Positions 3,399-45,731 of a DNA stretch of 64,000 nucleotides are shown piece by piece. The notes beneath the pieces were generated by a model. The model searched no databases, was not told the DNA's origin, and saw only the letters and a list, made by a program, of their open reading frames with translations. Source of the DNA: Candidatus Ornithospirochaeta avicola (GTDB lineage: Bacteria > Spirochaetota > Spirochaetia > Sphaerochaetales > Sphaerochaetaceae); the NCBI GenBank assembly GCA_019113245.1, contig DXHU01000023.1, positions 124,001 through 188,000 of the forward strand, given 5' to 3'. Positions within the stretch are counted from its first letter, which is position 1, and every line of letters begins with the position of its first letter. A program made the position numbers and the translations under genes.

Positions 3399-4685
3399 AT
3401 GGATAAAGCAACAATAGAGAAACTCGGAATCAGAACAGCGGACATTCTCCTTCCCAAAAAGGATGTGGACTATTCTAAATGGGCAGTAATTGCCTGCGAC
3501 CAGTTCACCAGCCAGGAGGATTACTGGAGAGAATGCGAGAGCTTCGTCGGACAGGCAGAAAGCACACTGAAGATCATTTACCCGGAAGTGTACCTGGAAA
3601 AAGACAGCAAAGAAGAGAAGGAAAAACGCATTGAGAGCATAAACAGTACAATGGAAAAGTATGTGAAATCCTCTCTTTTTGATGAGTATAAAAACTCGTT
3701 CATACTTGTAAAGAGGACTTGCTCAGCAATTGTACGCTGGGGCCTTGTATGTGCTCTTGATCTTGAAAAGTACGACTATTCATCTTCATCCAGTTCTCTT
3801 ATCAGGGCAACTGAGGGAACTATAAACGAAAGAATTCCGCCAAGAAAGGAAATAAGGAAGAATGCCATACTGGAAAGCCCTCATATCATGGTCCTTATTT
3901 CAGATGAGAAGAAAACCGTCATAGAGAGGCTGCGCGATAAATGCGATAAGCTGAAAAAGCTCTATGATTTTGATCTCATGCAGGGCGGAGGCCACATTGA
4001 AGGCTATCTTGTAGATGATGAGGAGGATATAGATGCTGTTTATTCAGCATTGAATGTCCTCTATGATGAAAATGGGGGAAAGGTGCTCTATCTCATGGGC
4101 GACGGGAACCACAGTCTTGCAACAGCAAAAAGCATATATGAAGACATGAAAGAGAAAAACGAGGATACAGGATTGACCCGATATGCCCTTGTTGAGATAG
4201 AAAACATCTTTGATGACGGTATCTGCTTTGAGCCCATTCATCGCCTTTTCTTCAACATAAGTCTTCCTTGCCTGCTATCAGAGCTGAGCTATGTGGCCAA
4301 AACTGTTGAATTAAAGAGATGCGAAAGCCTTGAGGATGCAGAAAAGGAAATCGAGGACGGAAAGCTCTCCTTTGCAATATGCACAGGCTCTGCTTTCTTC
4401 AAGGCAACACTTTCCGGATGCACAAGCACTCTTTCTGCACGTGTCATCCAGAATCTGATAGATAGAATCAAAGACAAGGTGAAAGTAGACTACATCCATG
4501 GAAGTAAGACTGCAGCTTCGCTTGCAGGAGATGAAAACATTGCCATCATACTTCCTCAGGTAAGAAAAGAAGAATTCTTCTCAACTGTTCTCAAAGATGG
4601 ATCATTTCCAAGAAAGACATTCTCAATTGGACATGCTGAGGAAAAGAGATATTATCTTGAATCAAGAATAATCAAGAAGATCTGA
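3399..4685 (+). CDS. DUF1015 family protein
   Basis: A 428-residue cytoplasmic protein of the DUF1015 (COG4198) family, whose biochemical role is not established. Family landmarks are the N-terminal KWAVIACDQFTSQ segment, the FILVKRT segment near residue 100, and LYLMGDGNHSLATAK near residue 230, where many relatives have DGHHR. Here His is retained but the second His is Asn. A strong ribosome binding site (AAAGGAGG) precedes the ATG. The 3' end runs 24 nt into the convergent tsaC gene. Confidence 0.85.
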   Translation: MDKATIEKLGIRTADILLPKKDVDYSKWAVIACDQFTSQEDYWRECESFVGQAESTLKIIYPEVYLEKDSKEEKEKRIESINSTMEKYVKSSLFDEYKNSFILVKRTCSAIVRWGLVCALDLEKYDYSSSSSSLIRATEGTINERIPPRKEIRKNAILESPHIMVLISDEKKTVIERLRDKCDKLKKLYDFDLMQGGGHIEGYLVDDEEDIDAVYSALNVLYDENGGKVLYLMGDGNHSLATAKSIYEDMKEKNEDTGLTRYALVEIENIFDDGICFEPIHRLFFNISLPCLLSELSYVAKTVELKRCESLEDAEKEIEDGKLSFAICTGSAFFKATLSGCTSTLSARVIQNLIDRIKDKVKVDYIHGSKTAASLAGDENIAIILPQVRKEEFFSTVLKDGSFPRKTFSIGHAEEKRYYLESRIIKKI

Positions 4686-5222
4686 TGCATCATACTTGCC
4701 CTGCCGTATAATCCGGTAGGGCTTTCTGCTCATGTCAACGAGGGTGGACGCAAGCCCTCCCCTGATTTCATCATTCCTGACAATGAAATCAACCTTGCCT
4801 TCATAGCGTGGCAGGATTGTAGAATACTCAAGAAGGCTTTCAGAGCCGGACTGGTTGACGCTTGTTGAGAAAAGAGGACCTGTCTCATCTATCACCGAAA
4901 GAAGATTCTCATCATCAGGGACTCTGACAGCATGTGTCACATTGTCCTTGCCCATGAGGATTACAGTAAGGCTTTCAGGAAAAACCGAATAAAGAATCTC
5001 AGGGACGATAAGTCCTGATGCTTTCAGTTGGGATACAGTCAAAAGTGTTATGAAGCTCTTGCTCTTCGGCCTGTTCTTAATCTCATAAAGCTTTTCCTGG
5101 TTTTTTTCATTTGCCCTCGCATTGAGTCCGTAGATTGTGTCAACAGGGAAAATACCGACCTTATCCTCATTTAAAAGCCTTATGAGGCTAGCTTTATCGT
5201 CTTTCTCAAGTATAGTCGTCAT
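4662..5222 (-). CDS. tsaC: L-threonylcarbamoyladenylate synthase
   Basis: It makes threonylcarbamoyl-AMP from Thr, bicarbonate and ATP for the t6A37 modification of ANN-decoding tRNAs. The YrdC fold is shown by GIFPVDTIYGLNARA near residue 25, KNRPKSKSFITLL near 50, VRVPDDENL near 105, and STSVNQSG near 125. The 186-residue form is the short TsaC type without the Sua5 domain. I place the start at 5222 (MTTILEKDD), which has a GAGAGGA site at the right distance, rather than the longer frame beginning at 5294. It overlaps the end of the DivIC-like gene by 17 nt and is probably co-transcribed with it. Confidence 0.9.
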   Translation of the reverse strand: MTTILEKDDKASLIRLLNEDKVGIFPVDTIYGLNARANEKNQEKLYEIKNRPKSKSFITLLTVSQLKASGLIVPEILYSVFPESLTVILMGKDNVTHAVRVPDDENLLSVIDETGPLFSTSVNQSGSESLLEYSTILPRYEGKVDFIVRNDEIRGGLASTLVDMSRKPYRIIRQGKYDASDLLDYS

Positions 5223-5649: not shown

Positions 5650-5678
5650 ATAATAATTCTGATTAATCTTGTTATCAA
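5650..5678 (-). promoter_or_regulatory. promoter of the DivIC-like/tsaC operon
   Basis: On the minus strand TTGATA and TATTAT are separated by exactly 17 bp. The -10 hexamer ends 18 nt before the start codon at 5631. Confidence 0.65.
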
Positions 5679-5707
5679 CATGATTAGTTGAAAAATGGAG
5701 GATGATG

Positions 5708-6592
5708 ATGTCCGAATCAAACAAAACTGTCAAGCTTGTAATCACGAGTGTAATTATCTCTGCTGTTGTCTTAGGCATTTTCACCGTGATTTTCTCTCTT
5801 TACATGGTGCCCAATCTTGGCATAACCGATTCTCAGATTTATTCAGTTCTGATGAAGCTTTTCCCGATTGTAATCGGATTGATACTCATTGAAGTGGGAA
5901 TCATGATTGCACGCAGAAACAGGAAGATAGAGAAGAACGAGGAAGATAGGCTCCCAGAAAACCAGTATGTTGATGTATCATCAAACGATCCAGCAAAAGA
6001 AGTTGTAAGGGAAGTTGTCAAGGAAGTCCCTGTTGAGGTCATAAAGGAAGTTGAGAAGGAAGTTCCTGTAGAAGTTATCAAGGAAGTTGTAAGAGAAATT
6101 CCTGTCGAGGTTGTAAAGGAAGTTCCTGTAGAAGTTGAGAAGATAGTGCAGACAGAAGCAGAACCGGTTATAAAGGAAATTGTCAAAGAAGTTCCAATTG
6201 AAGTAGTTAAGGAAGTTGTGATAGAAAAGCCGGTTGAGAAGATAGTTGAAGTCGAGAAGACTGTTGAGGTGCCAGTTGAATCTGCCTACTCTGCTGTTCA
6301 GGAGCGCTCATTCGATTTCCGCTCCGCTCTTTCTGAAGAGATCAAAAACGCAAAGGAAAGCGGATACAGCCTTTCTGTCTGCGCCCTCAAGAGTGCGGAT
6401 GAGCAGAAAATTACAGCGGAAATTGGAAATACTCTTAACTTCACTGAAGACGGAATCACATATGTTATTCTGCCATTTTACAACAAGAGTGAAGCAGATA
6501 GCAGTATGAGAGCATTTAATGCAGACTGCGTTGAATATAACGGACAGAATGAAGAGAAACTGATCTCGCAGGCAAAGAAAGCCGCAAGATAA
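5708..6592 (+). CDS. membrane protein with a long VPVEV-KEV repeat domain
   Basis: The 294-residue protein has two N-terminal transmembrane segments (about residues 9-33 and 45-68), a short charged linker, a repeat region at residues about 97-191 and a globular C-terminal domain of about 100 residues (from RSFDFRSAL). The repeat alternates short Val/Ile-Pro and Lys-Glu units such as EVPVEVIKEV. I chose the third of three tandem ATGs because GGAGG at 5697-5701 then has a 6-nt spacer. No enzyme motif is visible. The repeats may form an extended spacer between membrane and C-terminal domain. It ends in a terminator. Confidence 0.75.
   Translation: MSESNKTVKLVITSVIISAVVLGIFTVIFSLYMVPNLGITDSQIYSVLMKLFPIVIGLILIEVGIMIARRNRKIEKNEEDRLPENQYVDVSSNDPAKEVVREVVKEVPVEVIKEVEKEVPVEVIKEVVREIPVEVVKEVPVEVEKIVQTEAEPVIKEIVKEVPIEVVKEVVIEKPVEKIVEVEKTVEVPVESAYSAVQERSFDFRSALSEEIKNAKESGYSLSVCALKSADEQKITAEIGNTLNFTEDGITYVILPFYNKSEADSSMRAFNADCVEYNGQNEEKLISQAKKAAR
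5996..6280 (+). repeat. in-frame degenerate repeats encoding VPVEV/VKEV units
   Basis: The DNA consists of many near-copies of GAAGTTCCTGTAGAAGTT and GTTAAGGAAGTT type words, all in the same reading frame. They encode alternating E-V-P-V-E-V and K-E-V units. Copy boundaries are irregular, so the number of units is hard to fix by eye. Confidence 0.85.
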
Positions 6593-7599: not shown

Positions 7600-8610
7600 T
7601 CAGGATGACGCATATATGTCGCTTATTAAAGCTACGCTCCTGGTCGCAGAAGAAAGCGTAATCAATAGCTTCTCTTTTTTCTTCATAGCATTGATGACAT
7701 TCTCAACCACTTTCATGTGATATTCATAGTTTATGGCCATCGGATCAGAATAGCCGCCTGAAGAGCTTTTTCTACCATAGATTTTTCTTATTTCCTCATC
7801 CTCCGGCCTCTCATCAGAAAAGGACCACTCTGTTATGCTGTCCTCCTCCATGCATATTGTCCCCCTGCTTCCGTAAATTGAAATCCTCTTGCTCTCTCCC
7901 GGCCAGGATGAGATGCTTGCATTGATGCTGCCAAGCGCTCCGTTTTTGAATAAAAGTGAAACTGATGCATTATCCTCCACTTCAACCTGATGGAAAAGAC
8001 TCGTTTTATATGCCTTGAAGGACTCTACTTCTCCTGCAAAATAAAGAAGTAGGTCAATTGCATGTATTGCCTGGCTCATCAGAACTCCGCCTCCTGTGTT
8101 CTTATAAAACCCCTTATATGGAGAAGAGGTGAAATAAGATGGATCGCGGTACCAGAGCACATTCGCCATAAAATAAGAGAGATGTCCAAGCCTTTTTTCA
8201 TCAAGAGCTTTCTTCACTACAGAAACAGGGGGAAAGAATCTTGACTGGAAGAATACGGAAATCAGAGTGCCGCTTGTCTTCTCCAGATCAAGTAGAGTCT
8301 CGCATTCTGCTTTATTCATGCAGACAGGCTTTTCGATAATAAGAGCACGGACTGAGCATTCTATGCATTTTCTTGCTATCTCAAGATGTGTCGATGGCGG
8401 GGTTGCAATAAGCACAAGGTCAACGCTTTGAGAAAGAAGCTCATCAAGGGTGGAAAAATATCTTATGCCGTGAGAAAGCGCAAAACGCCTTCCCTTCTCC
8501 TCTCCTCTGTTGACAGCTCCTATAATATCCACTTCTTCAATCGATGAAAGAGCCTTGAAGTGCACCTCTGCAATGCTTCCGCAGCCGATTATGGCAGATC
8601 TTATTCGCAT
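7600..8610 (-). CDS. Gfo/Idh/MocA family NAD(P)-dependent oxidoreductase
   Basis: A 336-residue dehydrogenase with an N-terminal Rossmann fold (AIIGCGSIAEVHFKAL near residue 6), then LVLIATPPSTH near 65 and the EKPVCMN motif near 95, whose Lys is the family's catalytic lysine. The GGGVLMSQAIHAIDLL segment near 175 is the second conserved block. Family members oxidise or reduce sugars, inositols and related compounds; the substrate cannot be named. It overlaps the upstream transporter gene by 10 nt and is probably co-transcribed, although a metabolic link to that transporter is not evident. Confidence 0.85.
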   Translation of the reverse strand: MRIRSAIIGCGSIAEVHFKALSSIEEVDIIGAVNRGEEKGRRFALSHGIRYFSTLDELLSQSVDLVLIATPPSTHLEIARKCIECSVRALIIEKPVCMNKAECETLLDLEKTSGTLISVFFQSRFFPPVSVVKKALDEKRLGHLSYFMANVLWYRDPSYFTSSPYKGFYKNTGGGVLMSQAIHAIDLLLYFAGEVESFKAYKTSLFHQVEVEDNASVSLLFKNGALGSINASISSWPGESKRISIYGSRGTICMEEDSITEWSFSDERPEDEEIRKIYGRKSSSGGYSDPMAINYEYHMKVVENVINAMKKKEKLLITLSSATRSVALISDIYASS

Positions 8611-33828: not shown

Positions 33829-35029
33829 CAAGCTCTATCTCATAAAGGAAGGAGAAATATCGCTCAAGGGCGGTAACCGTCATGTTTTTGAACGTAAGCT
33901 CAGAGACAACATTAGGGAGAAATTCAAAGGATATTCTCCAAAAATCGAGCGCCAGAAAGGAAGAGTCTATCTCTATCTTGATGAAAAGTGCAGTGATGCC
34001 TTCATCTCTTTTATGCTTGAAAGGACATTCGGAATCACAGGCTTTGCGCGTGCGTACAAAGCAGAAAAGGATATTGACAGAATCATAGAGAAAGTGAGGG
34101 AAATACTCCCATCTTCCCCGTTTACTGACGACGGAGGAACATTCAGAATCGACTGCAGGAGAGAGGACAAGGGCTTTCCTCTTTCCAGCCATGAGATTTC
34201 AATCAGGCTTGCTTGCCTTGTCCACGAGCTTTATCCAAGCCTTTCGGTAAACCTAAAGAATGCAGACTACACACTCAGTGTGGAAGTCAGGGATGATGTA
34301 TATCTTTATTTTGACAGTGCTAAGGGAGCCGGAGGACTTCCTGTTTCAACAGCAGGACGAGCTGTTCTTCTTCTTTCGGGAGGAATAGACAGCCCTGTTG
34401 CCGCCTACTATATGGCAAAACGCGGAGTTAAGCTTGACTGCATATACTTTCATGCATATCCGTACACAAGCGATGAAGCACTTGAAAAAGTAAAGAAGCT
34501 TGCATCTTTAATTGCCCCATATCTTGAAGGTACAAGGCTTTATGTCGTTCCGTTTACGGATGGGCAGCTCAGGATAAAGAAGAAAAGCTATATAGACGAA
34601 ACAACTCTGATGTTCCGTGCAAGCATGATGCAGACTGCAGAGCGCATTGCAAAAGCGAAAAAAGCAACTGCAATTGTCACGGGTGAAGCTCTTTCCCAGG
34701 TTGCAAGCCAGACACTCAGCGCGATGAACTTCACAGACAGCATGACTAGCCTTGTAGTCCTCCGCCCCCTTGTCGGCATGGACAAGGAGGAGATTATTAC
34801 AGTGTCAAAGAAAATAGGCACATATGAGACAAGCATCCTTCCATACGAGGACTGCTGCGTGATTTTCTCTCCAAAGCATCCTGTAACCAATCCGGATAAA
34901 GAAGAATCTAGAAAGCACTATGAGGCACTTGAGATGGATGAGGAGATAGAAAAGGCAATAGAGAAAATGCAGGTGTTCTATTTCAATGCAAGGGGAGAGG
35001 AAGAAGAGAAGAGTCAGAGTCCGCTCTGA
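33821..35029 (+). CDS. thiI: tRNA 4-thiouridine synthetase ThiI
   Basis: It adenylates U8 of tRNA and inserts sulfur. An N-terminal ferredoxin-like/THUMP region (residues 1-165, LIKEGEISLKGGNR at the start) is followed by the PP-loop LLLSGGIDSPVAAYYMAKRG near 185 and the C-terminal SPKHPVTNP block. The length of 402 means there is no rhodanese domain, so this is the short form that relies on a partner desulfurase, here the overlapping upstream gene. The end overlaps the convergent ABC gene by 16 nt. Confidence 0.94.
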   Translation: MSDKLYLIKEGEISLKGGNRHVFERKLRDNIREKFKGYSPKIERQKGRVYLYLDEKCSDAFISFMLERTFGITGFARAYKAEKDIDRIIEKVREILPSSPFTDDGGTFRIDCRREDKGFPLSSHEISIRLACLVHELYPSLSVNLKNADYTLSVEVRDDVYLYFDSAKGAGGLPVSTAGRAVLLLSGGIDSPVAAYYMAKRGVKLDCIYFHAYPYTSDEALEKVKKLASLIAPYLEGTRLYVVPFTDGQLRIKKKSYIDETTLMFRASMMQTAERIAKAKKATAIVTGEALSQVASQTLSAMNFTDSMTSLVVLRPLVGMDKEEIITVSKKIGTYETSILPYEDCCVIFSPKHPVTNPDKEESRKHYEALEMDEEIEKAIEKMQVFYFNARGEEEEKSQSPL

Positions 35030-35033
35030 TTCT
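35010..35033. terminator. hairpin spanning two overlapping convergent stop codons
   Basis: AGAGTCAGAG and CTCTGATTCT form a 10-bp stem with one imperfect pair and a TCCG loop. The stem lies across the stop codons of thiI and of the ABC transporter gene. Neither side has a long T run, so it may be a weak or Rho-assisted bidirectional terminator. Confidence 0.5.
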
Positions 35034-36693
35034 TCTGCTCATCAAACATTTCTCTGTAAAGTGCGCAGGAAGAATAAAGAGCCTCATGACTTCCGCTTGC
35101 TGCTATCTTTCCTCTATCCATGACAATTATTTCATCTGAATAGAAGCTGCTTGAGAGCCTGTGTGATATAAAGACTGCTGTATCTCCAGGCTTTACTCTT
35201 AGGGCTTCTTCATACACTCTCTTTTCTGCTTTCACATCAAGACGGCTTGTTGGCTCATCCATTATAAGAACAGAACCAGAAGAAAAGACTGAACGTGCAA
35301 TCTGAACTCTCTGGCTCTGGCCTCCTGAAAGCTCTATCCCGACACTTTCATAATCTGAGCCGAGCTTGAGCTCTGTATCCTCATTGATATCAAGAGAAGA
35401 AAGAAGAGATCTGACTTTATTGCCATCATATCCCTTTTTCATCGCAACATTCTCACCAAGCGTGAAGGAGAATATTGTCACAGACTGCGGACAGTATGAG
35501 AAGCTCAGACCCTCCTCTGCTATTATTCTTCCCTCGCATGGAGAAAGAAGTGAGAGCATCAGCTTTACCAGTGTGCTTTTGCCGCTTCCGTTCGGTCCCA
35601 CTATTGAATAGATTCTGCCCCTCTTGAATTCAAAAGTCACATCATCAACAGCTTTGTTTTCTGCTCCTGGATATATGTATGAGACATTTTCAAGTCTTAT
35701 CCCCTTACCGCCCTTTTCTATCTTTCCTTTCTTTTTCTCAAGATCAAGGAACTCAAGATAGACTCTCATTCTTTCATTATTGATCTCAACTTCGCTTCTT
35801 CCCCTGAAAAGGGATGTAAAGAACAGAACCAGGCTCATCAGTGACAGACAGAGAGTGAGAGAATAAGATGTGGATGAGAGAGCAAGGAAGAGAATGACAA
35901 GCAAAATCGCGGAAAGGGCTTCGAAAAGTCCTATGAGAGTCTTCTCATACTCTTCCTTCTTGAAAAGCCTCATCATCGGATTCATGAAAGAGCTGTATTT
36001 CCCTTCAACAAAAGAATTCTTGTTGTTGCTCCTTATGCTCTTCATCTTTTCAAATTCGCTGGAAAGGAGGGCAAAGTAATAATCTCCTTTTCTGTTGTTC
36101 TCCATCAGGCTCTCTATTCCTTTCTCAAGTGTGATGGAAACATTCTTTTCAGTCTTGTAAAAAACGAAAGACAAAAGAAGAGAGAAAGCAACAAGAAGGA
36201 GAAGATAGAATGCATGATGAATTTCTGAAGAAAATAGAATATAGCAAATGGCAATAAGCAGGGATGAAAGAAGAGTAAGTCTCTTTTCAAGAAGACGGTA
36301 TGCATTTATTGCAGGGCCTCCGTTATGCATCTGCCAGTCCATAATTGCCTGTGATTTTCTCCAGCTTGAAGGTTCATTCACAAGCTCTATTCTCTTACCT
36401 GAAAGTTCACGGAAAAAAGAAAGGCGAAGCAAGAAATCGAGATTCTCGCTCTTATGCATGATAAGTATGACAAATACATTCAGCATCAGAATGGAAAAAA
36501 TAGACGGTATTAAAAGAATATTTCTTCCGCCAATCAGGCCATCAAGAAAGAAAAGCATGAAATATGAAATAAGTGAAGCAAAAACAGCTTTTAGCAGAGG
36601 ATAGACAATAAGGCGCTTATCCTTTTTCCATAAATAGAAAAGAGTTTTCTTATCTGGAAAATAGTGCAGCCTGTTCAGACAAGAGACCTGCAT
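35014..36693 (-). CDS. ABC exporter half-transporter (permease-ATPase), catalytically canonical subunit
   Basis: The 559-residue protein fuses a transmembrane domain (six segments between about 28 and 295) with an ATPase. Walker A is GPNGSGKST (366), signature LSGGQSQRVQIA (455) and Walker B VLIMDEP (475), with H-loop ISHRLSS. There is no N-terminal C39 peptidase domain. AAAGGAGG lies at ideal distance from the ATG, inside the end of the partner ABC gene (44-nt overlap). As the last gene of the radical SAM peptide operon it probably helps export the modified peptide; the leader would have to be cut by another protease. Confidence 0.85.
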   Translation of the reverse strand: MQVSCLNRLHYFPDKKTLFYLWKKDKRLIVYPLLKAVFASLISYFMLFFLDGLIGGRNILLIPSIFSILMLNVFVILIMHKSENLDFLLRLSFFRELSGKRIELVNEPSSWRKSQAIMDWQMHNGGPAINAYRLLEKRLTLLSSLLIAICYILFSSEIHHAFYLLLLVAFSLLLSFVFYKTEKNVSITLEKGIESLMENNRKGDYYFALLSSEFEKMKSIRSNNKNSFVEGKYSSFMNPMMRLFKKEEYEKTLIGLFEALSAILLVILFLALSSTSYSLTLCLSLMSLVLFFTSLFRGRSEVEINNERMRVYLEFLDLEKKKGKIEKGGKGIRLENVSYIYPGAENKAVDDVTFEFKRGRIYSIVGPNGSGKSTLVKLMLSLLSPCEGRIIAEEGLSFSYCPQSVTIFSFTLGENVAMKKGYDGNKVRSLLSSLDINEDTELKLGSDYESVGIELSGGQSQRVQIARSVFSSGSVLIMDEPTSRLDVKAEKRVYEEALRVKPGDTAVFISHRLSSSFYSDEIIVMDRGKIAASGSHEALYSSCALYREMFDEQKNQSGL

Positions 36694-38359
36694 AGTATCC
36701 TCCTTTCTTGATCAGTTCATCATAGCTTCCGTCTTCCACGATTTCTCCATCAGCTATTACAAGAATCCTCTTGAAACCTTTAAGGCTTGAACACCTGTGG
36801 GTTATAAATATTCCTCCCTTATCCTCGAGCAGAGAATTGAACGAGGAAAAAAGCTTTGCCTCCTCCACAGGATCCAGTGCGGCAGTAGGCTCATCCATGA
36901 TAAAAAACGGAGCATCCTTATACAGCGCCCTTGCAAGATAAAGATGCTGTATCTCGCCAAGCGAGAAATCTGTACCGTTCTTTACATAGAAAGACGGGAT
37001 CTCCACAGTGTCGCTCACTTTCTTTTTCTCGAGGATTTTATCAAGACCGCTTTTTTCAATTACAGCATTATATTTCTTCTCATCCATCTTGCGTCCAAAG
37101 AGAATATTTTCCCTGACGCTCATCGGAAGCACTGTGTCATCCTGGAATATGCAGGAAAAACAGTCAAATACATTGGCAATCCCAGATACAGTCCTACCAT
37201 TTATTGACACAGAGCCTTCCTTTGCATCATAAAGCCCAATCAGGAGCTTTATAAGCGTTGTCTTCCCTGCTCCATTGAGTCCTACAATCCCGATTTTCTC
37301 ATCAGCTGAGATTTCAAGGCTGATGTTCTTAAGAACCTTTTTGTCCTTTGCAGACTCATATGAAAAGGAAACATTTTCAAAAGATATGCTTTTAAGCTTC
37401 TGATCAAGATTATCTTTCTTTTTATCGCATCCCCAGTCAATGAATGCATAATAATCATCAATCTGTCTTGATATGACAGCAACCTCGCTTGTGCTTGATG
37501 CAAATATCTCTGCTGTCTTTATCCCCTGATAAAGAAGCGAGAAAAGCATCACAGCATTTGCAGCAGGAGCATCAGAAAGGAGAGCAAAAATGCACAGCAG
37601 GAAAGAAATAATGTACTCAGAAAGAACAAGGATACGTGTATCAGCCATATATTTCTTCTGCTTTTCATCATATGAGAACTCCTGCTCTGAGAATTTATCC
37701 TTTATGTATTCCTCTGCTGAATAGTAATCAAGGACCTCTGCACTTTCCCTTATTCTTGAAATCTTCTCAAGATATCTGATGTTTCTCATCAAGCTGTTCT
37801 CTTCTTTTTTGAACATGCTTTTCTTTTTTCCTCTTGCCATTTCAAAGGAAAAGAAGACAAGTATGACAAGAAATAGGAAAACTGCATATGAAAGAGTCAA
37901 AGCTCTGTTCTGAGTGGAAAACACAAAGAAAAGAGAAATTATGATATAAAGGACTGCGGAAATCTGCTTGATAAGTTTCTGATAAAGCAGAGAAAAAGCG
38001 GACTTTGAAGAGTTTGTCGTTGCAACTGCCTTTGAAAATATCTCCTGCCCTTTTTCAGACTCAAAGAACTCAAAGTCTATATTGACGCACCTTGAAAAGG
38101 ACTGTTTTATCTTCTCCATCCTGTTATCATTTCCAAGAGCGAGAAGAAGATTGTCTGCTGATGAATTGATTTTAGGAAGAACAAGGTAAAGAGCAAGAAA
38201 AGCTGCAAACAGAATCCTGTTCTCCGGGTAGAAAATCAGGGCAATGAAGAGAAGAGGATATGAAATCAGTTCGGCAAGTTTCAAAACCAACAACATAATT
38301 GTCATTAAGATGTTTGATAAAGAACTTTCCTTAATTACACGAGATATGGTAATCAGCAT
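36650..38359 (-). CDS. ABC exporter half-transporter with degenerate signature motif
   Basis: About 569 residues, permease plus ATPase. Walker A GLNGAGKTT lies near residue 361 and Walker B FFIMDEP near 485. The signature reads FSLGEIQHL where LSGGQ is expected, so this subunit is the degenerate half of a heterodimer. I prefer the ATG at 38359, which has GGAG 5 nt upstream; a TTG at 38377 would lengthen it by six residues. It overlaps the radical SAM gene by 29 nt and the second ABC gene by 44 nt, so the three are translationally coupled. Confidence 0.83.
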   Translation of the reverse strand: MLITISRVIKESSLSNILMTIMLLVLKLAELISYPLLFIALIFYPENRILFAAFLALYLVLPKINSSADNLLLALGNDNRMEKIKQSFSRCVNIDFEFFESEKGQEIFSKAVATTNSSKSAFSLLYQKLIKQISAVLYIIISLFFVFSTQNRALTLSYAVFLFLVILVFFSFEMARGKKKSMFKKEENSLMRNIRYLEKISRIRESAEVLDYYSAEEYIKDKFSEQEFSYDEKQKKYMADTRILVLSEYIISFLLCIFALLSDAPAANAVMLFSLLYQGIKTAEIFASSTSEVAVISRQIDDYYAFIDWGCDKKKDNLDQKLKSISFENVSFSYESAKDKKVLKNISLEISADEKIGIVGLNGAGKTTLIKLLIGLYDAKEGSVSINGRTVSGIANVFDCFSCIFQDDTVLPMSVRENILFGRKMDEKKYNAVIEKSGLDKILEKKKVSDTVEIPSFYVKNGTDFSLGEIQHLYLARALYKDAPFFIMDEPTAALDPVEEAKLFSSFNSLLEDKGGIFITHRCSSLKGFKRILVIADGEIVEDGSYDELIKKGGYYAGLLSEQAALFSR

Positions 38360-39731
38360 CATCACTCCACAAATCAATTATATTCTCATCATAGTATTTC
38401 CATATTAACCATTCCTGAGCTTTTTTTGAAAACATACAAAAACCAGAATCCAAGCCCCATATAGAACCTGTCATCATTTCTGCATTTCTCGGACAACCTC
38501 CTCCACAAGTAGACAAAGCTGGACAAAAAATGCATTCATTAATATTATATGGAGATCTCTTACTCCATTCTATAAATACTGAATCGTTTTCCGGATAATA
38601 GTTTTGATCAAAAACTGTATTGTTAAAAGTTTTTCTTGAGCCCATATATCCTTGGCAAATTCCAATGAACCCATCTGTACTAACGCTGATTTGATTTCCT
38701 GTCCCTGTACATGACGATTTTCGTATGACACGCTCTAGAAAATCATTTATTTTTGCATCCATTCTTTTTTCATAAACTTCAGGATATTTTTCATTAATTA
38801 TCTCAGCCATCTTAAGAAGAGAACTTCCATATTTATTTTCATAATCCTCATCAAAAGAAGAATATTCACCGCTTGAAGGAATAATAGATACATGATTAAA
38901 ACCAGCCCCTTTAATTTTTAAATCGCCAAAAAGAAATTGAGCTACATCTGAAAGGTTATCAATACTGCTTCTTGTCATAACAGATGAAACTCCTGGTTCA
39001 ATTCCATGTTTACGCAATATTTCAATTTTACTTACCACTTCATCAAATGACCCTTTCCCATCAGCTGATACCCTATACATATCATTAACGTGCTTTGGAC
39101 CATCAATTGATACACATACATTTGTATTATATTCTTTTAATGTTTTTGCAATTTCATCTGTAATTTGTGTCCCATTAGTTATAACCACAGTTTTTACTTT
39201 GAAGCTACCATATTTTTCTGAAATATATGTTAGACATTTTTTCATAATATTCCAGTTTAATAGGGGCTCTCCCCCATAAAAAACGATAGTAAACTCTTCA
39301 TTAATATTCTTTAAAACAGATGGTAATTTAAAAAACTTATCAATAGCATGGCTTGCCACATCCCAGCTCATATTGCGTCTAGTATAGTTTTCACAAATTC
39401 CATCTTCTATAAAACAGTATTTACATCGCAAATTACAATAATCTGTAAGATGCAAAACCATTTCTTTTATTTCAACACCGTTATCAAGATGATTAAAAAT
39501 TTTATGACTTAAAGCAATCTCCTCTTCATTTTCCGGGACCCAGTTTCTCATTGAAATCAGTGTATTTGCTATTTCAAGATCTTTTCCAGTCAATTCTCCA
39601 TACTTACCTGTTTCATAATATATATGAACCTTATCTTTTTTTACAAAAAGCATGGTAACTTGTATTGAATTATATATGCAGGCTATATTGTCTCTAATAT
39701 ATAGGTGCGAATATATAGAACGCTTAAACAA
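38331..39731 (-). CDS. radical SAM/SPASM peptide maturase
   Basis: The 466-residue enzyme has an N-terminal domain of about 90 residues whose CIYNSIQ and LTGKDLEIAN pieces resemble the peptide-recognition front of RiPP maturases. The AdoMet radical motif is Cys99, Cys103, Cys106 (CNLRCKYC), then GGEP (153) and VSIDGPKH. A SPASM-type C-terminus supplies Cys341, 359, 400, 403, 409, 413 and 432 for auxiliary clusters, with CPALSTCGGGCPRN. The start is TTG with a GGGGGTG site 5 nt upstream. It follows a Cys-rich peptide gene and precedes two ABC exporter genes, so it is the likely modifying enzyme of that peptide. The DNA is more AT-rich than the flanks. Confidence 0.88.
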   Translation of the reverse strand: MFKRSIYSHLYIRDNIACIYNSIQVTMLFVKKDKVHIYYETGKYGELTGKDLEIANTLISMRNWVPENEEEIALSHKIFNHLDNGVEIKEMVLHLTDYCNLRCKYCFIEDGICENYTRRNMSWDVASHAIDKFFKLPSVLKNINEEFTIVFYGGEPLLNWNIMKKCLTYISEKYGSFKVKTVVITNGTQITDEIAKTLKEYNTNVCVSIDGPKHVNDMYRVSADGKGSFDEVVSKIEILRKHGIEPGVSSVMTRSSIDNLSDVAQFLFGDLKIKGAGFNHVSIIPSSGEYSSFDEDYENKYGSSLLKMAEIINEKYPEVYEKRMDAKINDFLERVIRKSSCTGTGNQISVSTDGFIGICQGYMGSRKTFNNTVFDQNYYPENDSVFIEWSKRSPYNINECIFCPALSTCGGGCPRNAEMMTGSIWGLDSGFCMFSKKAQEWLIWKYYDENIIDLWSDDADYHISCN

Positions 39732-39755
39732 AAATTCACCCCCTATCGTTTTAAT

Positions 39756-39784
39756 GCCGGTCTAAAATAAATAATAGAACCGGC
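39756..39784 (-). promoter_or_regulatory. hairpin between peptide and maturase genes
   Basis: On the minus strand GCCGGTTCTA and TAGACCGGC pair over 9 bp with one bulged T and an AT loop. There is no T run after it. The position between a putative precursor gene and its enzyme suggests an attenuator or an mRNA-stabilising element that keeps peptide levels above enzyme levels. Confidence 0.5.
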
Positions 39785-39790
39785 AAATTC

Positions 39791-39940
39791 TTAGCAAGCT
39801 TTTTTCCTTGTTTGCTTGTTATCTTCTGTTTTTTTCAGAATAATTTCGTCATTCATTTCTTTCATGACTTCTTCGATTTTCTTGAAACCAACATAATCAC
39901 AACAATAACAAGCGGGCTGAAAAACACTCTTCTTTTTCAT
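39791..39940 (-). CDS. putative RiPP precursor peptide, 49 aa, Cys-rich
   Basis: Too short for routine gene calling. The ATG at 39940 has a perfect GGAGG site with 6-nt spacer. The peptide starts MKKKSVFQPACYCCDYVGF, with Cys at 11, 13 and 14, continues with an amphipathic, charged helix-like stretch (residues 20-40) and ends RKKAC with Cys49. It stands 60 nt before the radical SAM gene in the same direction, under its own promoter. I know of no precursor class with a PACYCCDY box near the N-terminus and a charged tail; usual precursors have the leader first. The coding frame is well supported; the RiPP role is inferred from context. Confidence 0.78.
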   Translation of the reverse strand: MKKKSVFQPACYCCDYVGFKKIEEVMKEMNDEIILKKTEDNKQTRKKAC

Positions 39941-39960
39941 AAAAAACCTCCATAGATTTT

Positions 39961-39988
39961 ATAATACTAACTGTGAAATATAATTCAA
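39961..39988 (-). promoter_or_regulatory. promoter of the peptide-maturase-exporter operon
   Basis: On the minus strand TTGAAT and TATTAT are separated by 16 bp. The -10 hexamer ends 20 nt before the peptide start codon. The -35 hexamer directly abuts the palindrome at 39989-40004. Confidence 0.55.
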
Positions 39989-40004
39989 TTACACTTTAGT
40001 GTAA
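39989..40004. promoter_or_regulatory. 16-bp palindrome, putative operator of the divergent promoters
   Basis: TTACACTTTAGTGTAA has perfect 6-bp arms around TTTA. It lies between the divergent transcription units, adjacent to the -35 element of the peptide operon. The LuxR-type regulator encoded at 40627-41469 is the obvious candidate ligand, by inference. Confidence 0.55.
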
Positions 40005-40060
40005 ATTAATTAATTACTTATAATATAATGAATTAATAGTAAGGTAGAAATATTTTTATC

Positions 40061-40097: not shown

Positions 40098-40625
40098 ATG
40101 AATATCTTAGAAAAAATTTATGAAGAAAATTTAAAAATTTGCTCTTTGGCAAATTCATCAATAAAAGAAGATATAAGAATTCAAAAGGATAACATTGCTT
40201 TAAAAATTGTTGCTTTATTACCATTTATTGCTTGTTGCGATAACCCAACAGCAAACTCACTATTAAATATAAATACTTTTTTCTTTGTTTCTGACTCGAA
40301 GCTTAAACACTACTTTTTCCACAATGTTTCTAATAACCGTAATTTATTTTCTAGGTTATCAGCTTTTTTTTCATTTTGGGGTGGCAATAAGAAAACCATA
40401 CAGCAAGGGATGTTGCTATTATCTTTAATTATGATTCAAGACTACTATTATGATAAACAAATTGACATTGCTACAAAAAAATATAATCCGTTTAATACAA
40501 AATGCTGGAACTTTCATAAAATAAAAAAATATATTCTAAGCAACATAGTTGAAACTAGTATTGTTTTTAAATATTTCAACCTTCAAGAAGTGCTTGCTCA
40601 AAAATACTGGTGGAAGGAGATTTAA
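40098..40625 (+). CDS. AT-rich orphan protein, 175 aa, unknown
   Basis: I do not recognise it. The protein is mostly helical, rich in Asn, Ile, Lys and Phe, with one moderately hydrophobic segment (IALKIVALLPFIACCDN, about 33-49, including a Cys pair) and a Tyr/Lys-rich C-terminal half ending KYWWKEI. No signal peptide is obvious. The DNA is clearly more AT-rich than the chromosome average, like the peptide gene opposite it. The stop lies one base before the ATG of the regulator gene, whose ribosome binding site is in this coding sequence. It may be an immunity or accessory factor of the peptide system, which is a guess. Confidence 0.6.
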   Translation: MNILEKIYEENLKICSLANSSIKEDIRIQKDNIALKIVALLPFIACCDNPTANSLLNINTFFFVSDSKLKHYFFHNVSNNRNLFSRLSAFFSFWGGNKKTIQQGMLLLSLIMIQDYYYDKQIDIATKKYNPFNTKCWNFHKIKKYILSNIVETSIVFKYFNLQEVLAQKYWWKEI

Positions 40626-40626
40626 A

Positions 40627-41469
40627 ATGAGAAAGAGACAACTTATATTCGGTATAACCATGATACTGCTGTTTTCACTTACACTTATAATGCTATTTAT
40701 CTCAACAGGCGAAGCTTATCATCCGGTGATGCTTCTTGATGCCATCTCTTTGCTTCTTTTTCTCCCTAGTCTGATTGACAAGCCTTTTTTCAGGTACTAT
40801 CAGTGCTTTCTCTTCTTTTTTATGAGCACTCTTGCGTTTTTGGATGGGAGCAGCAGTTCTTTCTGGGGGTGGGGATTGCTATTTGTCAGCCTGTTGTTGA
40901 GTCAATATTATGGATTCTGGGAAAACCGAATTAGAACAAAAGCCTTTGTTGTTTTTATTCTGCTTATTTTCAGCTTTGGATTAATGGCATACGTTCATGG
41001 AGATTTCATATCAGAATTCTCCTCTGCAGTGATTTATCTCACATTTTTCTCAGTTTTTCTGACGATTCTCTACAAAGAAAAAATAGAAGAAATGCTTCAA
41101 CTGAAAAACGACTACAAGAAACTACTAGAGAAAATAAAGGATGCAAGAAATTCCATAGAAGATTACAGCATATCTAGTTTGGATAGAGATGAGGATATAA
41201 TCAGAATCGAATCATCACTGCAATCTGATATTGAGAAGCTAGAAAAACGAATCAGAGAAATAAAATATATTTCTGATCTTTCAGATGATGATATATCAAT
41301 TATACTTTCTCTTTATATCTCATCAGGGAACAAAACAAACAAAGAAATAGCTTATGACATACAGAAGTCAGAGACGTTCATAAAAAACAGATTCAGAGTC
41401 ATATACAAGAAGATTCCTGGAGTTCAATGCCGTTCTGCCCTTTTGCAATATATTTCAAGAGAACTTTAA
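40627..41469 (+). CDS. membrane-bound LuxR-type transcription regulator
   Basis: The 280-residue protein has about five to six N-terminal membrane segments (residues 5-150), a coiled-coil linker (about 150-215), and a C-terminal helix-turn-helix (about 218-277). In that domain NKEIAYDIQKSETFIKNRF followed by VIYKKIPG and SALLQYI matches the LuxR/GerE pattern. I start it at 40627, with AAGGAG 8 nt upstream, not at an earlier in-frame codon. Such layouts sense envelope or extracellular signals and bind DNA directly. It is probably the regulator of the divergent peptide operon. Confidence 0.78.
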   Translation: MRKRQLIFGITMILLFSLTLIMLFISTGEAYHPVMLLDAISLLLFLPSLIDKPFFRYYQCFLFFFMSTLAFLDGSSSSFWGWGLLFVSLLLSQYYGFWENRIRTKAFVVFILLIFSFGLMAYVHGDFISEFSSAVIYLTFFSVFLTILYKEKIEEMLQLKNDYKKLLEKIKDARNSIEDYSISSLDRDEDIIRIESSLQSDIEKLEKRIREIKYISDLSDDDISIILSLYISSGNKTNKEIAYDIQKSETFIKNRFRVIYKKIPGVQCRSALLQYISREL

Positions 41470-41528
41470 AACCAGACATTCTGAGTAATATGTAACTATA
41501 AGCATATCAATTAGATGCTTTTGTTTTA

Positions 41529-41557
41529 TTGTCATTTCTTTTGCAATCATATATCTT
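41529..41557 (+). promoter_or_regulatory. promoter of the activase operon, predicted leaderless
   Basis: TTGTCA and TATCTT are spaced by 17 bp. The -10 ends 8 nt before the ATG at 41566, and no Shine-Dalgarno sequence is present. Confidence 0.5.
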
Positions 41558-41565
41558 TTAGATAT

Positions 41566-44481
41566 ATGTTGAGAGTTGGAATAGATGTAGGGTCAACGAC
41601 GATGAAGGTCGTTGCCGTAGATGAAAGCGGAAAGCTCATATACAGTGCCTACGAAAGGCATTATTCAGAAATATTCAAGAAAGCGCACGACATGCTCACA
41701 TCTTTCATGGAGAAAGTGGGAGATCAGAGCATAATGCTCGCATTAAGCGGATCTGCAGGAATGGGACTGGCAGAGCAGGCTGAGCTTGATTTTGTGCAGG
41801 AAGTATATGCCACACGCCTTTGTGCACTCACCTACCTTCCCTCAACCGATGTAATAATAGAGCTTGGCGGAGAGGATGCAAAGATTCTTTTTCTCAAAGG
41901 CGGTCTTGAAGTCAGGATGAACGGAACATGCGCCGGAGGAACAGGAGCATTTATCGACCAGATGGCGACCCTCCTTGGAATCTCCCGTGATGATATAGAC
42001 AACCTTGCAAAGAAGGCAACGGAAGTTTATACGATTGCCTCAAGATGCGGTGTGTTTGCAAAATCCGACATACAGCCGCTGATAAATCAGGGAGCTAAGA
42101 CTGAAGATATTGCGCTTAGCATTCTCTTTGCTGTAGTCAACCAGACTATTGCAGGACTTGCACAGGGCAGGAAGATTGAGGGCAATGTAGTATATCTTGG
42201 AGGCCCTCTGACTTTCATTCCAACACTGAGAAAATGCTTTGACCAGCAGCTGCGCTTAGTTGGCACCTGTCCGGAAAACAGCCTTTACTATGTAGCACTC
42301 GGGACAGCTCTTTCTGCAAAAGGAAAAGGGATTCTTATTTCCACTTTAATAAACAAGATTTCATCTCTTAAGGGAAGCGGAAATTTCATAAAACTCCACC
42401 CTCTGTTTGAAAACCAAGAAGAATATGATGAATTCAGAATAAGGCATGAAAAGGCAACTGTTCCAGTAACAGATGCAAGAACATATAAAGGAAAGGCATA
42501 TCTTGGAGTTGATGCGGGAAGCACCACAATAAAATGTGCATTGATTGATGAGAATGCCAATCTGCTTTTATCCAGATATGGAGCAAACAACGGCAATCCT
42601 GTTCAGGCAATCGCATCGTTCCTTTCTTCTGTATACTCAGATTTCCCTGACATCGAGATTGCTGCAAGCGCATCCACAGGATATGGTGAAGATCTTTTGA
42701 AGGCAGCATTCAATCTGGATTACGGACTGGTTGAGACAGAAGCTCACTTTCTTGGAGCAAAACACTTCCTGCCATCTGTTGACTTCATAATAGACATCGG
42801 TGGACAGGATATAAAATGCTTTAAAATCCGTGATGGAGCAATTGATGACATATTTTTAAACGAAGCATGCTCATCAGGATGCGGATCCTTTTTGCAGACA
42901 TTTGCAAATGCTCTTGGAAAATCCAGCCAGGAATTCTCTTCTCTTGCTCTTTTTGCAAAGAATCCAGTAGACCTTGGCTCCCGATGCACAGTCTTCATGA
43001 ATTCATCTGTAAAGCAGGCACAGAAGGATGGTGCTGATATAAGCGACATATCTGCAGGACTTGCAATAAGCGTTGTAAAGAATGCCCTTTATAAAGTCAT
43101 AAGGGCCACAAGGTGCGACCAGCTTGGGAAGAATATAGTCGTGCAGGGAGGAACATTCTTAAATGATGCAGTTCTTCGCGCCTTCGAGATGGAAATGCAG
43201 AGCAATGTAATCAGGCCGACAATTGCAGGCCTGATGGGCGCATTCGGTGCTGCGCTCTATGCGAGGATGAAAAAGAAAAACGACAGGAAATCAAGCAGCA
43301 TCATAAACAAGGAAGAGCTTGATGAGCTCAATCCGAAGCTCAAAAGCATCAGATGCCAGGGATGTTCAAACCGCTGCATACTCACGATAAATGACTTTGG
43401 CCTAAACAGAAGGCTCATAAGCGGAAACAAATGCGACAAACCTATTACAGGAATAAAGAAGAAGGATGATGACAGCCTGAACATGTACCTTTATAAACAG
43501 GAACTGCTGAAAGAATACATGGACAAGGATCCGGAGAACAAGAGAGGAACTCTCGGCCTTCCGCTTCAGCTTGGGCTTTATGACCTTCTTCCTTTTTATC
43601 AGACACTCTTCTCGCGCCTCGGGTTCAAGACAGTTGTCTCCCCTTTCGGCTCAAGGAGCCTTTATATCTCCGGTCAGGCAAGTATCCCCAGCGACACAGT
43701 ATGTTTTCCTGCAAAGCTGATGCATGGGGCTGTAGAGAGCCTCAAGGAAAGGAATGTCGATTATATATTCATTCCTGCAAGCAGCTACAATGTGGATGAA
43801 AAAAAAGGCAACAACCACTACAACTGCCCTGTAGTTGCATATTATGGTGAAGTCATAAAATCAAACCAGGATCTTGGCTCCTCAGAGCTCAAGCTTGTAT
43901 ATCTCTCGCTTGAACATAAGAAAGCATTCTCAAAGAACATAAGCGCAGCATTCTCAATCCCTGAGCGCCTTGTAAGAAAAGCATTCGATGATGCAATTCT
44001 TGAACAGGAACGCTTCAGAAAGAAGATACTGGACAAGGGAAAAGAAATCATAGAAAAAGCCAGAAAAGAAAACAGGCAGATTGTTGTTCTCTCAGGACGT
44101 CCCTATCATGTGGATCCTGAGATAAACCATGGCATAGACCGCATGATTGTCTCCCTTGGCGCGGCTGTGATAAGCGAGGACAGCATAAGCTATCTTGAGA
44201 AGAAGAAAGAAAGGACTGTCCTAAATCAGTGGACATATCATGCAAGGATGTATGATGCGGCTGAATACATACTGGACAGGAAGGACATGAATCTTGTACA
44301 GCTTGTATCCTTCGGATGCGGTCTGGATGCTGTCACAACAGATGAAGTAAGGCAGATATTGAGAAGTTCTGACAAGATCTACACGCAGATAAAGATTGAT
44401 GAGATAACCAATCTGGGAGCTGTGAAAATAAGGATGCGCTCACTTTTTGCAGCCCTTGAGCTTGAAGAGGAAGAAAAATGA
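41566..44481 (+). CDS. double-domain 2-hydroxyacyl-CoA-dehydratase-type activase (BadF/HgdC) with DUF2229
   Basis: The 971-residue protein has two ASKHA ATPase domains, starting RVGIDVGSTTMKVVAV (residue 3) and LGVDAGSTTIKCALI (about 308). Each has its own Cys motifs that bind a [4Fe-4S] cluster between subunits (TCAGGTGAF and SRCGVF; EACSSGCGSF and SRCTVF). The C-terminal third is DUF2229, with a Cys set CQGCSNRC near 600. Such activases use ATP to drive low-potential electrons to a partner. The ATG at 41566 fits the fold start; the frame extends upstream. It overlaps the partner gene by 4 nt. Confidence 0.88.
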   Translation: MLRVGIDVGSTTMKVVAVDESGKLIYSAYERHYSEIFKKAHDMLTSFMEKVGDQSIMLALSGSAGMGLAEQAELDFVQEVYATRLCALTYLPSTDVIIELGGEDAKILFLKGGLEVRMNGTCAGGTGAFIDQMATLLGISRDDIDNLAKKATEVYTIASRCGVFAKSDIQPLINQGAKTEDIALSILFAVVNQTIAGLAQGRKIEGNVVYLGGPLTFIPTLRKCFDQQLRLVGTCPENSLYYVALGTALSAKGKGILISTLINKISSLKGSGNFIKLHPLFENQEEYDEFRIRHEKATVPVTDARTYKGKAYLGVDAGSTTIKCALIDENANLLLSRYGANNGNPVQAIASFLSSVYSDFPDIEIAASASTGYGEDLLKAAFNLDYGLVETEAHFLGAKHFLPSVDFIIDIGGQDIKCFKIRDGAIDDIFLNEACSSGCGSFLQTFANALGKSSQEFSSLALFAKNPVDLGSRCTVFMNSSVKQAQKDGADISDISAGLAISVVKNALYKVIRATRCDQLGKNIVVQGGTFLNDAVLRAFEMEMQSNVIRPTIAGLMGAFGAALYARMKKKNDRKSSSIINKEELDELNPKLKSIRCQGCSNRCILTINDFGLNRRLISGNKCDKPITGIKKKDDDSLNMYLYKQELLKEYMDKDPENKRGTLGLPLQLGLYDLLPFYQTLFSRLGFKTVVSPFGSRSLYISGQASIPSDTVCFPAKLMHGAVESLKERNVDYIFIPASSYNVDEKKGNNHYNCPVVAYYGEVIKSNQDLGSSELKLVYLSLEHKKAFSKNISAAFSIPERLVRKAFDDAILEQERFRKKILDKGKEIIEKARKENRQIVVLSGRPYHVDPEINHGIDRMIVSLGAAVISEDSISYLEKKKERTVLNQWTYHARMYDAAEYILDRKDMNLVQLVSFGCGLDAVTTDEVRQILRSSDKIYTQIKIDEITNLGAVKIRMRSLFAALELEEEEK

Positions 44482-45731
44482 GCGAATTCACAAAAGAAAT
44501 GAAAGAGCAGAAGTGGACAATAGTTGTCCCAAACATGTCTGAAATCCATTTTGACATAATGAAGAGAATCTTCGTCAATCATGGCTATAATGTTCTCCTT
44601 CTTGAAAACAATGATGCCACTTTGATTGATGAAGGACTGAAGTATGTGCATAACGACATGTGCTATCCTGCACTCCTTGTAATCGGACAGATGCTGGATG
44701 CAATAAGACGCGGCCTTGTTGACAAGGATCACTGCGCGCTGGCAATCAGCCAGACTGGCGGAGGATGCAGAGCAAGCAATTACTATTTCCTCTTGAAGAA
44801 GGCTCTTGAGAAGGCAGGGCTGGGAAACATTCCTGTAATATCGCTGAATCTTCAGGGCATGAACAGCAATCCAGGATTTAAAATCAATCTCTTCATGCTC
44901 ATTCAGGCATTTACAGGCCTCATTTACGGGGATATGCTGATGATGCTTTCAAACCAGACAAGACCATATGAGGTGAACAAGGGAGATACTGATAGACTTG
45001 TTGCTACCTGGACTGAGCGCCTTGGAGAAGCCTTCAATAAAAACAGAGGTTACTTTGGAAAGCATTTGAAGCGCAATCTCAACCAGATTTCTGATGACTT
45101 TGCATCAATTAAATGCGAGCGGAAGAGCAAAGTGAAGGTCGGAGTTGTTGGAGAAATCTACATGAAGTACTCAAAGCTCGGAAACAACGACCTCAAAAGC
45201 TTTCTTGAAAGCCAGGACTGCGAAGTGATGCTTCCTCCCATGATGGGATTTGTATTCTACTGTTTTTCAAACAGCATAACAGATCAGGACCTCTATGGAG
45301 GACGGCTTAAATGGAAACTTCTGATGAAGTATGTTGCCATTCCATATATGGAAAAGTTTGAGCGCTGGATGAATGAAGCCATAGCGAGACACGAGGAGTT
45401 CAGACGTCCTGCCACATTTAAGGAACTTGAAGGCTATGCAGAAGGAATAATCAGCCAGGGGTGCAAGATGGGCGAAGGATGGCTCCTGACTGCAGAGATG
45501 GTGGAGCTCATAAACAAGGGATACTCCAACATAGTATGCACACAGCCCTTCGGATGCCTGCCCAATCATATAGCAGGAAAGGGCATGATAAGGCCGCTGA
45601 AAGAGCGTTACCCGGAAAGCAATATAGTTCCAATTGATTATGACCCTTCAGCAACAAAAGTCAATCAGGAGAACAGAATCAAGCTCATGCTCTCAATTGC
45701 CAGAGAGAATCTGGAAAAAGAAAATCAATAA
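44478..45731 (+). CDS. 2-hydroxyacyl-CoA dehydratase (HgdB)-like protein, partner of the activase
   Basis: A 417-residue protein of the HgdB/BcrBC/double-cubane-cluster superfamily. Cys residues that could hold iron-sulfur clusters are in NDMCYPALLVIG (about 73), SQTGGGCRASNY (about 95) and CTQPFGCLPNH (about 355). In many anaerobes this part is fused to the activase in one protein of about 1400 residues; here it is separate but coupled by an ATGA overlap. The substrate is unknown; small-molecule reduction by a double-cubane cluster is one option. Confidence 0.82.
   Translation: MSEFTKEMKEQKWTIVVPNMSEIHFDIMKRIFVNHGYNVLLLENNDATLIDEGLKYVHNDMCYPALLVIGQMLDAIRRGLVDKDHCALAISQTGGGCRASNYYFLLKKALEKAGLGNIPVISLNLQGMNSNPGFKINLFMLIQAFTGLIYGDMLMMLSNQTRPYEVNKGDTDRLVATWTERLGEAFNKNRGYFGKHLKRNLNQISDDFASIKCERKSKVKVGVVGEIYMKYSKLGNNDLKSFLESQDCEVMLPPMMGFVFYCFSNSITDQDLYGGRLKWKLLMKYVAIPYMEKFERWMNEAIARHEEFRRPATFKELEGYAEGIISQGCKMGEGWLLTAEMVELINKGYSNIVCTQPFGCLPNHIAGKGMIRPLKERYPESNIVPIDYDPSATKVNQENRIKLMLSIARENLEKENQ

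Follow-up and report, generated by a model that had tools for sequence, protein, structure and literature searches.

A chemistry that bears on the locus described here is that of PapB, a maturase that forms Cys-Asp thioethers in CX3D motifs, accepting Glu as well as Asp and spacers of 0 to 6 residues, with CX3D preferred among several (PMC9413430). In the PapA/PapB system of the ranthipeptide freyrasin, the precursor PapA acquires six thioether links (PMC9413430); it has an N-terminal leader. RRE domains, for their part, as a rule lie at the N-terminus and are leader-binding (PMC8326336). Precursors of the FibroRumin family place a conserved motif, YxxLFGN, before their Cys core; the name FibroRumin, like the name Clo7bot, does not occur in the literature searched. 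Then there are followers. Darobactin, a radical-SAM case, has a leader and a follower as well as its core (PMC9055067), and the bottromycin precursor BtmD yields its product from its N-terminus, after which comes a follower peptide (PMC5103208), although bottromycin is made by other enzymes and other chemistry than those of a radical-SAM thioether system.

The window (the whole 64-kb stretch of DNA that was analysed) carries on its minus strand an operon-like run, in which the gene of a small peptide is followed by that of a radical-SAM/SPASM maturase and those of two ABC exporter halves. It has what is general to radical-SAM/SPASM RiPP operons, the CX3CX2C motif and SPASM set of cysteines in the enzyme and, beside it, a small precursor-type ORF preceded by a ribosome site, and it resembles each of the named systems in part. 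As in FibroRumin, a Cys-containing small ORF lies directly upstream of the maturase, and FibroRumin is the best family for that enzyme, but the window peptide has no match to TIGR04135 and no N-terminal YxxLFGN, and its cysteines stand near the N-terminus with a 35-residue tail behind them. It shares with PapA a single C-x3-D spacing, C11-D15, to be set against the six links of PapA. Among solved folds, that of CteB from the SCIFF pair CteA-CteB comes closest to the maturase along its whole length, whereas SCIFF has six Cys in 45 residues and the window peptide four Cys in 49. The likeness to bottromycin would be an N-terminal core; the relation of the window operon to bottromycin and darobactin was looked at by curated-family scans alone.

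I propose that the small ORF encodes a radical-SAM RiPP precursor of unclassified type, likely one whose ACYCCDY box is cross-linked by the adjacent maturase and which is then exported and trimmed. The operon is probably a genuine orphan system; its kind is known, but its precursor is unusual.

The peptide gene and its operon

The features of the operon, from the promoter onwards, are these:

39989..40004, no strand: perfect dyad TTACACTTTAGTGTAA, over the -35 element and spacer of the promoter; no other exact copy in the window
39977..40005, minus strand: sigma-70-like promoter TTTACA-17-TATATT, about 40 bases ahead of the peptide ATG, a match to the consensus only
39947..39951, minus strand: ribosome-binding site GGAGG, read directly from the sequence, 6 nt ahead of the peptide ATG
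39791..39940, minus strand: 49-aa precursor-like peptide, ATG at 39940 and stop at 39791-39793, with an ACYCCD box (residues 10-15), a charged tail (15-48) and a terminal Cys49
39732..39790, minus strand: spacer of 59 nt, with a hairpin GCCGGT...ACCGGC that no T run follows, and after it AGGGGGTGA, the maturase's ribosome site
38331..39731, minus strand: radical-SAM/SPASM peptide maturase, 466 aa, with a TTG start behind AGGGGGTGA
36650..38377, minus strand: ABC exporter half 1, 575 aa, its start overlapping the maturase end by 47 nt
35014..36693, minus strand: ABC exporter half 2, 559 aa, its start overlapping half 1 by 44 nt, with an AGGAGG site

The peptide, MKKKSVFQPACYCCDYVGFKKIEEVMKEMNDEIILKKTEDNKQTRKKAC, has PACYCCDY at residues 9-16 and Cys at 11, 13, 14 and 49, and the tail past Cys14 contains nine Lys/Arg and eight Asp/Glu. 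The length, the cysteines and the charged C-terminal half are just as the preliminary description had them; it named no strand, and the ORF proves to lie on the minus strand. Modelled by AlphaFold2 from the single sequence, the peptide is given one helix, from 16 to 47 (mean pLDDT 68.7).

The 366-nt intergenic stretch was dinucleotide-shuffled 20,000 times. An ORF of 49 codons or more turned up in 1,356 of these shuffles, but an ORF of that length with a Shine-Dalgarno sequence in only 29, and one that also had at least four Cys in two. It is because ribosome site, length and Cys content are together so rare in shuffles that I judge the ORF to be more than chance. It is also one of only two small ORFs (30-90 codons) with a ribosome site outside large ORFs in the window. 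Codon usage over the 49 codons is undecided (0.162 in frame, 0.181 in one wrong frame). No credible homolog of the peptide was found in 139 genomes of the family, where weak matches reached E 0.04-0.09, nor by tblastn in plasmids and phages, nor in viral contigs searched for PACYCCDY as a DNA pattern, and there is no family match even at E 10. Judged by these searches the peptide is an orphan in every set, which counts against its being a precursor.

If it is one, then the peptide would be the first product translated from the operon, the maturase would bind it through a probably RRE-like domain at its N-terminus, and the enzyme would install at least one Cys-derived thioether cross-link in the ACYCCDY box. 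The most likely bond would run from Cys to Asp15, C11-x3-D15 being the spacing cross-linked by PapB. The peptide has a single CX3D motif, C11-YCC-D15, and one such motif can arise by chance, so the Cys-Asp bond is only a prediction; CX3D is absent from the three relatives' precursors checked. The product may instead have sactipeptide-type links to alpha-carbons, or a link or disulfide with Cys49, as in the macrocycle that the preliminary description suggested. The paired ABC halves would export the product. A Pfam scan of the exporters found no C39 peptidase domain, so a leader or follower would have to be cut off by some other protease, presumably one from outside the operon, which would trim the product.

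The dyad TTACACTTTAGTGTAA is a candidate operator of the peptide promoter. Divergent from the operon lies a 175-aa ORF (40098-40625, plus strand) with no match in Pfam, NCBIfam or plasmids and none above chance in PHROGs, followed by a membrane-protein-like ORF (40627-41469, plus strand) with weak similarity to HTH regulators. The pair possibly serves regulation of the operon or immunity.

The maturase and its relatives

The alignment places the Fe-S ligands of the CX3CX2C motif at C99, C103 and C106 and shows the SPASM set (C341, G354, C359, C400, C403, C409, C413 and C432) to be invariant. Almost all of the top curated families for this enzyme are peptide maturases. FibroRumin (TIGR04136) is the best at 202.5 bits against a cut-off of 400, PapB (NF047865) second at 163.1 bits against 340, and SCIFF (TIGR03974) reaches 131.7 bits against 425. 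Since these scores fall under each family's own cut-off, the maturase lies outside all three.

An AlphaFold2 model built on a thin alignment (mean pLDDT 64.9, pTM 0.70) has CteB (5wgg) as its closest solved structure, with Z 31.3 over 396 residues, rmsd 4.0 and 22% identity; residues 5-450 of the model align with 1-450 of CteB. TigE (8vpo) gives Z 26.6. In CteB and TigE, the stretch ahead of the radical-SAM barrel is what the N-terminal part of the enzyme matches. Residues 1-85 take the form of strands and then helices in the model, in an RRE-like manner but at low confidence (pLDDT 35-58), and for that reason it is the match to CteB and TigE that is taken to indicate a probably RRE-like domain.

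The search for relatives covered samples of the family, order, class and phylum, genome and viral contigs, plasmids and phages, and among these sets, with more than 1,000 genomes, no maturase was more than about 37% identical across the greater part of the enzyme. The nearest by BLAST are those of two loci, L111 (236 bits) and L040 (229 bits), each about 32-33% identical to the window enzyme; next come L101 (215 bits) and then the true FibroRumin enzymes. In the maturase tree L040 and L111 are joined with full support, and the window maturase is a long branch with no settled position. If the proposal is true, it adds an unclassified branch of maturases that no curated family takes in, and one that is missing from the other genomes sampled in this lineage.

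Ten related loci were read for a Cys-rich small ORF near the maturase. In seven it lies directly upstream, at L102 directly downstream and at L114 one gene away; at L113 none was recognised, and this counts against the precursor reading. Where the small ORF lies is therefore largely conserved, while its sequence is not. The precursors of L037, L038 and L101 match TIGR04135. Most of the relatives' precursors have 5-13 clustered Cys, as against four Cys in the window peptide. Two stand closest:

L111, in genome G1295: precursor at 7859-8173, directly upstream of the maturase
L040, in genome G496 (Bacillota MAG bin149): precursor at 4589-4840, directly upstream of the maturase

Both have 12-13 Cys, with CxC repeats in mid-peptide, C-terminal tails that are alike and no curated family match, and on their sequences they are a small unnamed RiPP group. 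They share with the window locus a long charged tail, a precursor directly upstream and the nearest maturases, but their clustered Cys number 12-13 where the window peptide has three, their N-termini are longer, and no adjoining ABC pair was seen in the stretches read. Just downstream of the L111 maturase is a short ORF (5676-5924) that looks by eye like a phage tail-collar domain.

The preliminary description had read the peptide as a RiPP precursor, and the SPASM maturase 59 nt downstream and the Cys-rich small ORFs near related maturases give that reading good support. It had also looked to small ORFs beside related maturases for confirmation; these do occur near the maturase in nearly all the loci, but none is a sequence homolog of the window peptide.

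What else might the ORF be? That it is a chance ORF without function, the true substrate of the maturase being encoded elsewhere in the genome, would suit the lack of homologs and the neutral codon usage, but the result of the shuffles and a position that is that of precursor genes beside related maturases make this very improbable. The peptide might be a metal-binding or redox product, exported with its CYCC and terminal Cys but not cross-linked (metal binding was allowed for in the preliminary description too), and its Cys box with vicinal cysteines would suit such a product. Against this stand the dedicated SPASM maturase next to it, with its cofactor ligands intact, and the related loci, which are RiPP systems, and I consider the account unlikely. 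A regulatory leader peptide, in which translation of Cys codons controls a hairpin ahead of the maturase gene, is suggested by the hairpin itself, which starts a few bases past the stop, and by the last codon, which is Cys. Three of the four Cys codons lie, however, at the far end of the ORF, the fold z-score is just -1.83, and neither a terminator-like site (the hairpin has no T run) nor an Rfam match was found; the absence of a terminator and of an Rfam family led to the rejection of this idea, which seems scarcely credible. The likely reading is that of a cross-linked RiPP precursor.

The possible order of core and recognition part

Fourteen precursors (those of the window, L040, L111 and eleven others) were compared for the number of residues before and after the Cys cluster. 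After it there are 35 in the window peptide, 36 in L040 and 38 in L111, but 6-18 in the eleven others. Before it the window peptide has 10, the fewest of the fourteen, and the eleven others have 23-44. Among the related loci a long charged tail behind the Cys cluster is found only in the L111 and L040 precursors. The tails of these two align with a score reached by 9 of 2,000 shuffles, their N-terminal parts with one reached by 297 of 2,000. No similarity joins the window tail to either of them; about half of shuffles score as well.

The FibroRumin motif YxxLFGN finds its best score in the window peptide, 5.27, at residues 21-34, behind the Cys box. This is weak, true members scoring 10-27 when left out one at a time, and shuffled sequences do as well in 230 of 5,000 cases, control segments in 25 of 377. 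KIEEVMKEMNDEI and SYELMFGNINEEV are alike by eye, but with p about 0.05-0.07 a recognition motif shifted behind the core is not claimed, and the candidate was set aside.

It is a tenable view, though somewhat short of probable, that the order is the conventional one: the maturase binds the short basic N-terminus MKKKSVFQPA as a leader, the residues from Cys11 to the end serve as core or as structural tail, and no follower is recognised. The N-terminal, leader-binding habit of RRE domains (PMC8326336) and the place of YxxLFGN in true FibroRumin precursors both argue for it. Against it are the mere 10 residues available ahead of Cys11, the FibroRumin motif that scores best behind the Cys box, if weakly, and the fact that what aligns between the L040 and L111 precursors is the tail and not the N-terminus. 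Given the long charged tail, a C-terminal follower is about as likely to be what the maturase recognises as is the 10-residue N-terminus.

The reversed order raised in the preliminary description, a core followed by its recognition sequence, draws support from the long tails of the two nearest relatives and the very short N-terminus of the window peptide, while the sequence tests came out negative or weak; I hold it to be plausible, though rather less likely than not. A broader reading is that the window, L040 and L111 form a lineage in which a Cys core precedes a follower helix of about 35 C-terminal residues used for recognition. The window peptide would then be the minimal case, with three Cys, of a lineage that has reversed the order of leader and core usual in thioether-forming radical-SAM RiPPs. 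That I think rather unlikely. If it were true, a compact pair of one 49-residue substrate and one enzyme would be at hand for studying substrate recognition by radical-SAM maturases where the core comes first, and the system would also lend itself to the engineering of peptides whose N-terminal core is nearly free.

Origin of the locus

GC content over the operon stretch is 0.27-0.40, against about 0.43 around it. In the nearest genome, G062, ThiI is 95% identical and the DNA matches at 94% up to window position 35018, beyond which the two diverge. The equivalent stretch of G062 (L135, 8083-11310) has transposase-like and ATPase-like genes instead of the operon, and neither a close copy of the maturase nor any copy of the peptide is present in G062. 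In another genome, G065 (L137), thiI lies next to trpS with hardly anything in between, which makes the site behind thiI a place of variable insertion. The low GC and the absence of maturase and peptide from G062 give the operon the look of a recent gain, and transfer is its most likely source.

Between the low-GC island and trpS, at 41515-45731 on the plus strand, the window also has an acyl-CoA dehydratase activase-like gene with a partner; this pair has normal GC and is absent between thiI and trpS in G065. Elsewhere, genome G1329 (L116/L117) retains a remnant of an L111-type maturase, 91% identical over the last 118 residues only, which is a sign of gain and decay.
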